A DNA stretch of 32,247 nucleotides from a virus, in IMG/VR virus record IMGVR_UViG_3300030060_005831, positions 1 to 32,247 of that record; one strand, given 5' to 3'. This document shows positions 5,093 to 13,745 of this stretch, piece after piece (positions within the stretch are counted from its first letter, which is position 1; each line of letters opens with the position of its first letter). The position numbers were made by a program, and so were the translations under genes. Below the pieces are notes generated by a model that saw only the letters and a list, made by a program, of their open reading frames with translations, made no database searches and had not been told where the DNA came from.

Positions 5093-5299
5093 TTAAAACA
5101 ATGGATCATCACATTCTGGAATATTTGCAGTATAAATAATATCGTCACAATTTTTTATTTGAAGCTGTAACAAAGCGATCTTTTCTATTGCAGCATAAAC
5201 TTCTTTTTTAGTTCTAGGCTCACAAAGATAATCAATAAACTTTTCTGACTCTTGTTCTAAAAAAGCTTTTTTAAATTGATATTCAAGTTTGTGATTCAT
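5093..5299 (-). CDS. Hypothetical protein, 68 aa
   Basis: Small helical, charged protein that starts 17 bases inside the 3' end of the methyltransferase gene, so it is probably coupled to it. Helices KLEYQFKKAFLEQESEKFIDYL and KKEVYAAIEKIALLQLQIKN are predicted by eye; the C-terminal tail is acidic and Pro-rich. No family recognised. Confidence 0.5.
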   Translation of the reverse strand: MNHKLEYQFKKAFLEQESEKFIDYLCEPRTKKEVYAAIEKIALLQLQIKNCDDIIYTANIPECDDPLF

Positions 5300-6569
5300 T
5301 TTCTAAATCCAAAACACGTTGTAAAGGGATAGCTGCACATTGCGGCACTAATCCGTTTCCGAGCAACTTGAGTCGGCTGGCTCGATTTGTGAGTAGTTCA
5401 GAGGCAGACCCATCAGGATCTCCACAAATTGCGGGTTCAACACCATATTCTTTCCAGTTTGGGTTGAGCAAGTGTTTTGTGTTTCTCCATCTGAAAGTAT
5501 TGTTATTGCATCCCTGAGTTTTACTCCCCATCTTTCCCCTTTCTTGTTTTCCCTGTAAAAGCTGCCGTTCTTGAATTGAACATCTTTGGCTGTCCCTCCC
5601 TCGATGTCCGATGCTGTCGGAGTTGGTAGTATTGGAGTCTTGGAAGTCCACTCCTTTGTTTTCACTGTTGTCATTTCTTTGTCGAATTGAATCTGTGTTA
5701 AATGTGGTTTTATCACTTCCCAGTCTTCGATGCTGGGATAGCTGAACCCCGCTTTGTCCTTTCTGAACCAGTGTTCTATCTTCGTTTTTTTGATTGTTGT
5801 CTTGACTGCCAGTTCCTTGATCGTTGTTTGTTCCCTTAGATAACTCACGAACTCTTCCTGACTTGGAAGATATGGCCTTTCCTGTATTTGATGATCCTGA
5901 TATATTTTCATTAACTCTGGATTGTCCTTGATGTGATTCATCATTACTTTGTCGCTCAAGGTTACTTGTATTGGTTGGCCTGATGATCTGTGAGTTTTCC
6001 CCTGCAGCATTTTGGTTGCGTGTTTCAGCCCATCTTCTCTTATATCCATCGCTGTCGGGGTCGGTAAAGTCTCTGTTAATTGCGATAAGCCACCAGCGAT
6101 CTCTGTGGTGACAGGTTCGGACATAATCGCTTGCTCGAAAAGTTCCCCATTCCGCATTATACCTTCCCTTGGAAAGCTCCCCGAGAACGATTCCCAATCC
6201 GTTATTAAGGATCGCTGCCACGTTTTCCATGATGACGTATTTGGGTCGAACCACGCATACGACTCGCATGAGTTCGTAAAAGAGACCCGACCTCGTCTCT
6301 TTTGTGATACCAAGGCGTTTGCCACTACAACTGACGTCTTGACAAGGAAATCCTCCGACCACAACGTCTGCTGAATATGGTTTTGGTTTAAAGGTTCTGA
6401 TGTCATCGTGAATAGGTACGTTAGGCCAATGTTTTTTTAATACTTTCTGACAGTATGGTTCAATTTCAACAAATTGTATTGTTTCATAACCGCCTACAAG
6501 TTTTTCAGCAGCGTAGGAGAATCCTCCACCGCCACTAAAAAGATCAATAATTTCAAGATTTTCACCCAT
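5283..6569 (-). CDS. dcm: DNA (cytosine-5) methyltransferase
   Basis: Transfers a methyl group from S-adenosylmethionine to C5 of cytosine in DNA, probably to protect phage DNA from host restriction. Motif I DLFSGGGGFS (9-18), motif IV GGFPCQ with catalytic C76, motif VI ENV (115-117), motif VIII HRDRW (155-159) and motif X LLGNGLVPQCA (402-412) are all present. Start chosen at ATG 6569 rather than the in-frame ATG at 6611: AGGAG lies 10 bases upstream and the ATGGGTGA overlap with the upstream stop is typical. Residues about 175-385, where the target-recognition domain should be, are rich in Asn, Ser, Gln, Gly and charged residues and nearly free of hydrophobic residues. A 352-codon ORF lies inside in another frame. 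Confidence 0.9.
   Translation of the reverse strand: MGENLEIIDLFSGGGGFSYAAEKLVGGYETIQFVEIEPYCQKVLKKHWPNVPIHDDIRTFKPKPYSADVVVGGFPCQDVSCSGKRLGITKETRSGLFYELMRVVCVVRPKYVIMENVAAILNNGLGIVLGELSKGRYNAEWGTFRASDYVRTCHHRDRWWLIAINRDFTDPDSDGYKRRWAETRNQNAAGENSQIIRPTNTSNLERQSNDESHQGQSRVNENISGSSNTGKAISSKSGRVRELSKGTNNDQGTGSQDNNQKNEDRTLVQKGQSGVQLSQHRRLGSDKTTFNTDSIRQRNDNSENKGVDFQDSNTTNSDSIGHRGRDSQRCSIQERQLLQGKQERGKMGSKTQGCNNNTFRWRNTKHLLNPNWKEYGVEPAICGDPDGSASELLTNRASRLKLLGNGLVPQCAAIPLQRVLDLENESQT
5348..6406 (-). CDS. Nested ORF inside dcm: methyltransferase-associated protein, 352 aa
   Basis: Entirely inside dcm on the same strand, shifted one base. It does not look like a random shadow. It has WSEDFLVKTS (16-25), SSWKTWQRSL (58-67), FPREGIMRNG (78-87), two LPTPTA-D repeats (114-121, 260-267), an HTH-like segment TTIKKTKIEHWFRKD (203-217) with FSYPSIEDWEVIKPHL after it, and LNPQFVEILMGLP (323-335). 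I recall these motifs, from memory, in proteins often found with phage and bacterial DNA methyltransferases. Its hydrophobic content is normal exactly where the Dcm frame is low-complexity. No Shine-Dalgarno is evident before ATG 6406, so how it is translated is unclear. Possible roles: target recognition or a modification partner; neither is shown. Confidence 0.55.
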   Translation of the reverse strand: MTSEPLNQNHIQQTLWSEDFLVKTSVVVANALVSQKRRGRVSFTNSCESYAWFDPNTSSWKTWQRSLITDWESFSGSFPREGIMRNGELFEQAIMSEPVTTEIAGGLSQLTETLPTPTAMDIREDGLKHATKMLQGKTHRSSGQPIQVTLSDKVMMNHIKDNPELMKIYQDHQIQERPYLPSQEEFVSYLREQTTIKELAVKTTIKKTKIEHWFRKDKAGFSYPSIEDWEVIKPHLTQIQFDKEMTTVKTKEWTSKTPILPTPTASDIEGGTAKDVQFKNGSFYRENKKGERWGVKLRDAITILSDGETQNTCSTQTGKNMVLNPQFVEILMGLPLNYSQIEPADSSCSETD

Positions 6570-6909
6570 TGTATTTCCACTCCTGTTGCTTTTCAAAAAT
6601 AAAAAGTTCATGGCTTACATGAATATATTTATCTCTGAATGTTTTTTGGAAATCTTTGTTTTCCATAAGCATATCAAGAATAATTCTTGAAACAATTTTT
6701 GCTTTTACATTTTTTGAATACATTGATTTAAAAGTAATCTTAAATAGTTCAACATCACCTTTTATAAGCTGTTCTATTTCATCTTTGAACTCATGCTTTA
6801 CGGCAAGTTCTGTAAGATGTCTTGCATCCTCTATGTCGTTTCTATCTGAACAGACAACAGCTTCTGTGATTAGGGCTTGAGCAAGTTTTAGTCTTTGATC
6901 TTTGTTCAT
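6562..6909 (-). CDS. Hypothetical protein, 115 aa
   Basis: All-helical, charged protein. The N-terminal half (LAQALITEAVVCSDRNDIED, then ARHLTELAVKHEF) resembles a tetratricopeptide-like helix pair; the C-terminal half is Lys/Phe-rich. The stop overlaps the dcm start by 8 bases and the start overlaps the stop of the 51-aa ORF upstream, so it is part of the same operon. No family recognised. Confidence 0.55.
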   Translation of the reverse strand: MNKDQRLKLAQALITEAVVCSDRNDIEDARHLTELAVKHEFKDEIEQLIKGDVELFKITFKSMYSKNVKAKIVSRIILDMLMENKDFQKTFRDKYIHVSHELFIFEKQQEWKYNG

Positions 6910-12218: not shown

Positions 12219-12706
12219 AAAAGCTCTTACTACTTGCCGCCCTCTGTGTTCCAACTGCGGCCTACTGTGACATTCAACACTCAATAACTTCAAGCGTAAA
12301 GCTAGAGAGTCTATCAGCAGCAACTTCCGCAGATAAAATTGGATCAAGTTATAGCATCAGTGGAAACAACATAACTACTACAGATTCAAACTCAGCCGCA
12401 ACTCTTGGTGGATTTGGTTCTGTCACATCAGGAACACCAGCAATAAGTTTTCCTAGTTCTGTTGTTCAAGCAAATAGTTCTGAGGCCTTTTCATTCAGTA
12501 CTAGCTACCTAGAAGGGGACGCTACTTCTGGTTCAGCCCCAACAGTAGGCACAGTGAGCAATTTTAGTGACCTTACTTCCACAAGTGCTGGCTCAGTAGG
12601 CACAGCAGCCGTTTCATTAGATAATCACACAATGACACTTTCTGCTGGAACAGGAACAGGGGTTGTTTTAACTGGTCAATTCGTTACAGACTTAACTGTT
12701 GATTAA
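12215..12706 (+). CDS. Secreted Ser/Thr-rich protein, 163 aa
   Basis: Clear signal peptide: MKKLLLLAALCVPTAAYC with a likely cut near residue 18. The mature part is rich in Ser, Thr, Gly and Ala, with few charged residues and no Cys after the leader, resembling beta-structured exported or surface proteins. First of three consecutive exported proteins, coupled by overlapping starts and stops. Similar leaders and neighbours occur, from memory, in marine cyanophages; the role is unknown. Confidence 0.6.
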   Translation: MKKLLLLAALCVPTAAYCDIQHSITSSVKLESLSAATSADKIGSSYSISGNNITTTDSNSAATLGGFGSVTSGTPAISFPSSVVQANSSEAFSFSTSYLEGDATSGSAPTVGTVSNFSDLTSTSAGSVGTAAVSLDNHTMTLSAGTGTGVVLTGQFVTDLTVD

Positions 12707-13128
12707 TGTGGAAATATCTGCCGCTTATATTTTTTGTTAGTCCAGCTTATGCTCAAACTGTAGTGCCAAATTTTACCAGTGCTACATCTACAAGTCGATC
12801 TATTACCACTAATAACCTCACAGAAAATATCCGAGAAGTTCGCTACAATTCTGGTTATACCTACAGTGTCACTGGTTCTGGTATCTCATGCGGCAACTGT
12901 GATTCAATATCCATGCCAAATGCCACAGTGACAGAAACCATCAATGGAACTACCTACGAATGGACAGGCTTGAATATGAATCAAAAACCTCAATGGCAAC
13001 AGACAGGTCAAGGAGCTTTTCAATTTTCGGAGTTTTACAAAGGCCCTTCTCTCGAATCAGTAATCGACATCACAAGGCAAGTAACCTCAGAGGTGGTAAC
13101 AGATACTACTATTATATTTTCCAACTAA
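12706..13128 (+). CDS. Secreted protein, 140 aa
   Basis: N-terminal MWKYLPLIFFVSPAYA is a short signal peptide with an AYA cut before QTVVPNF. The mature protein is Thr/Ser/Asn-rich and has a Cys pair CGNC (about 62-65) that may form a disulfide outside the cytoplasm. Start overlaps the upstream stop by one base. No named family. Confidence 0.6.
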   Translation: MWKYLPLIFFVSPAYAQTVVPNFTSATSTSRSITTNNLTENIREVRYNSGYTYSVTGSGISCGNCDSISMPNATVTETINGTTYEWTGLNMNQKPQWQQTGQGAFQFSEFYKGPSLESVIDITRQVTSEVVTDTTIIFSN

Positions 13129-13745
13129 TAACCCTTTTTTCTTGTCTGCCTAGTTATGCCAATCAAAGTACAATAGCCAATCCTCAGTCGAATACAAGTT
13201 CCTCAGTATCGAATTTCGCCACTCAAGTCTTAACGGGACCTATGACAGAAAATTCTTATGGTGCTGGTATTCAATGTTCTGGAGCTACATTATCAATTAG
13301 CCCATTTGCCACAACTTCGGTTGCAGTAAAGCGTCCTCAAGACTATATTTTTCATACACCAGTCTATAACGAAGCAACAGACTCAGATGGCAACCTCACA
13401 AATGCTGGTGAGATTCTTTATTACAGAGAAAACTACAGCGGCAACAAAGATTCTACTTCTTTAAATTTTGGGATAGCAGCTACAATATCCGTCCCACTTG
13501 ATAAGCGTTTTCAAACTGCTTGCCTCAAAAGTGCGACTACTCAGGAAAAGATAATGCGGCAACAATTATCGACAGCCAGATTAAACTATGAATTGGCTAG
13601 ATTGAAAAACTGCCACGAGCTAAGAGTTATGGGTGCTGAATATTCTCCAGACTCTGAATACTTTGACCTTTGCTCCGATATTGTAAGTAAACCTAAAATG
13701 AACCAAGTTATCCCTCATACACACAAAATTGAGCTAAATAAGTAA
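13116..13745 (+). CDS. Secreted protein with non-ATG start, about 209 aa
   Basis: The mature part (from NQSTIANPQS, at 13161) is clear: TENSYGAGIQCSGATLSISP, an EILYYRENYSGNKDSTSLNFG repeat-like strand, SVPLDKRF, then a helix (QLSTARLNYELARLKNCHEL) and a DLC end. I recall this set of motifs in cyanophage proteins. The leader IFQLITLFSCLPSYA fits a signal peptide but begins at an ATT (13116); the nearest in-frame ATGs (12960, 12993) would add a charged, non-leader-like extension inside the upstream gene. Start uncertain, product well supported. Confidence 0.6.
   Translation: MFQLITLFSCLPSYANQSTIANPQSNTSSSVSNFATQVLTGPMTENSYGAGIQCSGATLSISPFATTSVAVKRPQDYIFHTPVYNEATDSDGNLTNAGEILYYRENYSGNKDSTSLNFGIAATISVPLDKRFQTACLKSATTQEKIMRQQLSTARLNYELARLKNCHELRVMGAEYSPDSEYFDLCSDIVSKPKMNQVIPHTHKIELNK

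Follow-up and report, generated by a model that had tools for sequence, protein, structure and literature searches.

A viral DNA methyltransferase gene that probably encodes the two structural domains of the enzyme in overlapping reading frames

The cytosine methyltransferase gene (dcm) of the virus studied here holds a second long reading frame, nested on the same strand and shifted by one base, and both frames are under selection. We consider it probable that the locus is a two-polypeptide C5-cytosine DNA methyltransferase (C5-MTase), the two structural domains of which lie in overlapping frames. Frame 0 (Dcm) would provide the large domain, i.e., SAM binding and catalysis with motifs I–VIII, followed by a long disordered linker and motif X. 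The +1 frame would be translated independently into a separate protein giving the small domain, with tandem target-recognition modules and then motif IX. The two proteins would assemble as a heterodimer into one active enzyme, in which the module array would determine which site or sites are methylated, and the methylation probably shields the phage DNA from host restriction.

Layout of the Locus

The window, i.e., the whole stretch of 32,247 nucleotides that was analyzed, is an IMG/VR virus record (IMGVR_UViG_3300030060_005831). It carries a tail module of the lambda type and genes for recombination, a replication-initiation protein and a RusA-like resolvase, and no restriction enzyme was recognized among the scanned neighbor genes. 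Two conserved phage ORFs elsewhere in the window, phrog_650 and phrog_848 (12706–13128 and 12960–13745, + strand), share 169 nt that are read in different frames, which may be a start-site artefact.

The first-pass annotation had described a 352-codon ORF fully inside dcm, shifted by one base. This is correct: the nested ORF begins with an ATG and lies entirely within the dcm ORF at an offset of 205 nt, which corresponds to the +1 frame (Table 1), and all the protein motifs quoted from it are present. The second ATG of the dcm ORF (6569) is preceded by AGGAG 10 nt upstream and is likely the start of Dcm, giving a protein of 428 aa. No Shine-Dalgarno sequence was seen at the nested ATG of the window, and conservation of the nested start codon among the related loci was not significant (29 vs 24.6 expected).

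Table 1. Positions in the window of the two reading frames and their parts.
Feature	Position	Strand	Details and evidence
dcm ORF (frame 0)	5283..6611	-	442 aa; PF00145 E 3.9e-37; phrog_363 E 3.4e-61
Dcm motifs I–VIII, large catalytic domain	6066..6557	-	residues 19–182; pLDDT mostly >90; alignment A1; M.HhaI match
Dcm linker, low-complexity, predicted disordered	5448..6059	-	residues 185–388; pLDDT ~40 over most; composition; position-1 substitutions
Dcm motif X helices (LKLLGNGLVPQ)	5286..5390	-	alignment A1; pLDDT ~92
Nested ORF (+1 frame), proposed small-domain / target-recognition subunit	5348..6406	-	352 aa; phrog_1008 E 1.5e-19; selection tests
Nested N-terminal part (SSWKTWQRSL, FPREGIMRNG)	6068..6406	-	residues 1–113; overlaps Dcm motifs IV–VIII; family-wide openness
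Nested module 1, starts LPTPTAMD	5630..6067	-	residues 114–259; same module in 12 loci
Helical HTH-like core of module 1	5663..5887	-	residues 174–248; N4/N6 MTase identity; PADLOC; pLDDT 86–95 over 191–240
Nested module 2, starts LPTPTASD	5453..5629	-	residues 260–318; module also in L001
Nested motif IX LNPQFVEILMGLPLNYSQIE	5381..5440	-	residues 323–342; profile match; HMM

Both Frames Are Kept Open

The window sequence was analyzed on its own by fixing one protein, shuffling its synonymous codons and counting the stops in the other frame over 5000 trials, either with permutation of the own codons or with genome codon usage (figures in brackets). Stops in the nested region averaged 10.4 (17.4) when Dcm was held constant, with a minimum of 3 (7), and those in the dcm frame averaged 13.3 (35.2) when the nested protein was held constant, with a minimum of 3 (20). 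As the synonymous shuffles never left the other frame open, whichever protein was fixed, chance is excluded as the source of the double openness. The longest alternative-frame openings in the other long genes of the window are 24–87 codons.

The related loci number 242, come from viruses and bacteria of many phyla, and were gathered with Dcm-only protein-based scans, which are blind to the nested frame, supplemented by phage records and a small number of nested-based hits. In 206 of the 242, a motif IX-type sequence is found in +1 and motif X in frame 0. Laboratory E. coli phages such as CarlMeissner/Bas48, Bas73, and Bas79 have a dcm locus of this type. The loci for the openness tests, which make up most of the sample, were selected by motif IX in +1 and not by openness. 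Frequent stop codons in the nested frame of relatives had been named in the first-pass annotation as evidence that would speak against dual coding, yet up to motif IX there were none in all 102 test loci, against 355.9 expected. Over the stretch that overlaps motifs IV–VIII, the +1 frame had 1 stop vs 280.2 expected in a set of 113 loci with identities below 75%, and was open in 112 of these vs 15.7 expected. No depletion was seen in the +2 control frame over the same motifs (422 stops vs 402.9 expected), nor in the +1 frame of canonical C5-MTases.

Conservation of each protein was examined with HMM scores while the other protein was held fixed. None of the 102 test loci was used in the training profiles. 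With Dcm fixed, the nested N-terminal part outscored all shuffles in 78 of the 102 loci, and nested motif IX did so in all 102, a figure partly conditioned by the choice of loci for a motif IX hit. Conversely, with the nested protein fixed, Dcm motifs I–VIII outscored all shuffles in 102/102 loci and Dcm motif X in 61/102. The window, which itself belongs to the training set, scored 111.6 for the nested N-terminal part (shuffle maximum 51.7, Dcm fixed) and 54.0 for motif IX (shuffle maximum 18.0).

A check of constraint in each frame of aligned loci, proposed in the first-pass annotation, gave Dcm-biased substitutions in Dcm-only DNA and nested-biased substitutions in the modules and motif IX. 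In the Dcm-only DNA of related pairs, 61% of the differences fall at Dcm codon position 3, while the commonest site in the modules and motif IX is Dcm position 1 (42 and 40%, respectively), which is the wobble position 3 of the nested frame. Between the window and locus L001, the modules differ by 30/7/6 substitutions at Dcm positions 1/2/3. The pattern in the N-terminal overlap is intermediate. Because the substitution positions shift by region, the frame in the lead changes along the gene, from Dcm to nested and back to Dcm.

Could the nested ORF be untranslated and simply reflect base composition or the conservation of Dcm? Some of its N-terminal motifs are indeed forced by Dcm (e.g., W-K-T from M-E-N), and higher GC makes an open +1 frame easier, so that the GC-rich loci stay open more readily. 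However, the stops are depleted in every GC class but not in +2 or in canonical C5-MTases, the HMM scores exceed those of synonymous shuffles, the substitutions are biased toward the nested frame, and the nested modules are homologous to in-frame proteins. This explanation is already contradicted, and we give it almost no weight. Selection for openness of both frames, and conservation of both proteins beyond mutual forcing, are strongly supported, and with them the dual coding put forward in the first-pass annotation.

Single frame switches within the gene were seen in four loci (L037, L167, L204, and L236), with motifs IX and X in unexpected frames; these could be pseudogenes, assembly errors or intermediates. 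Near dcm in L045, L052, L072 and other loci there are +2 openings of 240–660 codons, which are most probably adjacent genes.

The Dcm Frame Lacks the Small Domain

Frame 0 has the features of a C5-cytosine DNA methyltransferase (PF00145), with motifs I, IV (PCQ), VI (ENV), VIII, and X and an HhaI-like large domain. In the AlphaFold2 model of Dcm, residues 19–202 form a confident large domain and the motif X helices are ordered, while residues 208–403 have low confidence and are probably disordered. A Foldseek search with this model matched the large domain of M.HhaI (E 2.6e-15). The small domain is missing from frame 0 in the model and the linker takes its place. A target-recognition domain (TRD) and motif IX were not found in the Dcm polypeptide, and the motif IX-type sequence of the window is found only in the +1 frame.

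The first-pass annotation had also pointed out that the Dcm frame is low in hydrophobic residues where the nested frame has a normal composition. This agrees with the counts, as ILMFVW make up 14% and NQSGTDERK 79% of Dcm residues 185–388, vs 25 and 60% of the nested modules read from the same DNA.

Canonical single-frame C5-MTases have motifs IX and X in frame 0 and an unconstrained +1 frame, a description that the window does not fit but that the controls L057, L144, L148, L160, and L244 do. Plasmid genes of E. coli and E. fergusonii, examined as a possible EcoHK31I-like locus, turned out to be canonical single-frame enzymes and became controls.

The Nested Frame Carries Motif IX and Recognition-Like Modules

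The nested frame ends with the family motif LNPxFVExLMGxPxGWT. In a profile comparison that used relatives with motif IX and motif X in one frame, this motif matched the canonical motif IX RLTPxECxRLQGFPDxW (prob 95.4, E 1.9e-8); the match to DRM2-type enzymes was weak (E 0.044). The AlphaFold2 model of the nested protein was poor (pTM 0.29) and a fold search with it gave no match, and Pfam and NCBIfam searches of nested proteins returned nothing of note.

Between the N-terminal part and motif IX the nested frame holds PTP-type blocks, commonly one to three and at most seven. The modules are exchanged among loci: 178 module pairs are at least 60% identical where the catalytic domains are less than 50% identical (e.g., 89% vs 44%). 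L001, which has module 2 of the window, and L042 are 76% identical over this module while their catalytic domains are 40% identical. The helical core of module 1 matches the PADLOC profile MTase_II (type II methyltransferase) and is 44% identical to an insert between the catalytic motifs of an N4/N6 MTase in Staphylococcus phage Alsa_4. The Alsa_4 enzyme is of the SPPY type and has this HTH-like module (L064:2001-2237) in the place of its recognition domain, which suggests that recognition modules may pass from one methyltransferase class to another, unrelated one. Judging from their sequences and their exchange, the modules are putative target-recognition cassettes.

With motif IX and the modules in the nested protein and only large-domain motifs in Dcm, a modification enzyme with its recognition partner, as the first-pass annotation had proposed, is the best-supported reading of the locus. 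Both proteins might instead be made with the nested one in another role, e.g., as a regulator or an inhibitor of host restriction, and not as a methyltransferase subunit, a role to which the HTH-like core in one of the modules would be suited. We regard this as unlikely, in that the nested protein has the motif IX that is missing from the Dcm frame, the nested-first sampling described below finds it together with Dcm, and fused lineages hold the same parts as one enzyme with Dcm.

Variants and Relatives of the Nested Protein

The division of the motifs varies among the loci. Motif IX and motif X share the +1 frame in L051, L053, L063, and L159, where frame 0 ends after motif VIII, and in actinobacterial phages the module array is joined in frame (Phinally, Shauna1, and prophi104-2). 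One fused relative (L215) aligns to PF00145 over 2–322/324. Since some lineages have motif X in +1 or an in-frame fusion, the partition between the frames is not fixed. In the actinophage methylases L068, L069, and L074 the modules are in frame 0, yet a leftover module is seen in the +1 frame (e.g., TPRATDGTKGGPNQRGSSGDLMLPSAV), as if the arrays had been re-fused by an indel.

The existence of lineages fused in frame, and the C5-MTase character of the modules and motif IX, would also be accommodated by a single polypeptide, in which ribosomal +1 frameshifting after motif VIII joins Dcm motifs I–VIII to the modules and motif IX with no separate nested protein. Such a mechanism seems improbable to us, although a little less so than a different role for the nested protein. 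The +1 frame is open and conserved upstream of such a shift, along motifs IV–VIII, as seen from both the stop counts and the N-terminal HMM scores, and in some phages (L041, L054, and kin) the nested ORF begins 4 nt past the dcm start. Moreover, the frame-0 tail with motif X is also conserved and no obvious slippery site was seen by eye. A two-polypeptide enzyme with an independently translated nested subunit remains our preferred reading.

Stand-alone homologs of the nested protein away from dcm, which the first-pass annotation had suggested searching for, did not turn up: a nested-first sampling with phrog_1008 over 295 and 300 bacterial genomes and four locus genomes gave no non-overlapping copy. 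Its matches overlie Dcm, except for L254 (frame-shifted) and L255 (too weak to judge), and relatives of the nested protein were found only nested, fused in frame, or as single modules within other methyltransferases. The 'Mte8-like' protein of Pseudomonas phage PMG1 was considered as a stand-alone homolog and rejected, as Dcm is present in the overlapping frame. In this phage (NC_016765) the protein annotated as 'DNA methyltransferase' (L071:1390-2151) is the nested-frame protein and the overlapping Dcm is unannotated. The family phrog_1008 is also labeled 'DNA methyltransferase'.

The nested ORF has already been annotated in a few phages, as phrog_1008 and as the GenBank entries 'internal gene' or 'Mte8-like' (Paenibacillus phage Shelly_56 and Tadhana_55, and ORF28 of coliphage K1ind2). 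These records label it as hypothetical or 'methyltransferase' and give no mechanism, and many records annotate one frame only. The literature searched, mostly papers outside subscription, yielded no account of this nested pair from phages.

On balance we favor, with less confidence than the two-polypeptide enzyme itself, the view that these loci represent a class of two-frame methyltransferases in phages and bacteria that is large, mobile, and for the most part unannotated. Because the modules would be swapped in +1 and translated in frame 0 as a disordered linker, specificity would evolve by cassette exchange under two-frame constraint. The pair would then be a long and very widely conserved case of same-strand overprinting in phage and bacterial methyltransferase genes, of which usually one frame is annotated, so that a phage 'DNA methyltransferase' annotation would often reveal just one frame of a pair. 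It would also be a methyltransferase split by nature, with a specificity subunit that is modular and separable, and a clean system for studying two-frame evolution with catalysis in one frame and recognition in the other.

Comparison With Known Systems

Multispecific phage C5-MTases of the SPR and phi3T type have tandem target-recognition modules between motifs VIII and IX in a single frame. Tandem, shared modules are seen here as well, between the same motifs, but the array and the catalytic part of the window are read in different frames; each module may recognize a site.

In M.HhaI and M.HaeIII most motifs are in the large domain, and the small domain consists of the variable region and motif IX and makes all the specific DNA contacts (PMC3404938). 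As the variable region and motif IX belong to the small domain in these enzymes, the two frames of the window appear to split the enzyme by domain. M.AquI (CYCGRG) has motifs I–VIII and motif IX on two polypeptides (PMC3404938). The catalytic motifs and motif IX are likewise separated in the window, and the four loci with IX and X in +1 resemble M.AquI in particular; the window differs in having motif X in frame 0 and a second ORF that is wholly nested.

A second protein concealed out of frame in a phage methylase gene is also known from the actinophage ShiLan, where it is an HNH endonuclease (PMC11855218). That protein is an inserted homing endonuclease, whereas the second frame of the window would be part of the enzyme and overlaps conserved catalytic motifs.

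The closest known system, compared here by description rather than by sequence, appears to be M.EcoHK31I. Its small ORF is reportedly contained in the large gene and read in a different frame, like that of the window, and both proteins are said to be required in vitro. M.EcoHK31I (YGGCCR) has a large polypeptide with motifs I–VIII and X and a small one with motif IX (PMC3404938, citing Lee et al., 1995), the same division as between the two frames of the window. Its predicted TRD, however, has been assigned to the large subunit (PMC3404938), whereas it is the nested frame of the window that holds the recognition-like modules, of which related loci often have several in tandem, and the frame-0 linker looks disordered. 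As M.EcoHK31I is the closest system, the window locus may be regarded as a much enlarged version of a known but little-noticed kind. M.EcoHK31I, a long-standing oddity, would then become one case of a broad family.
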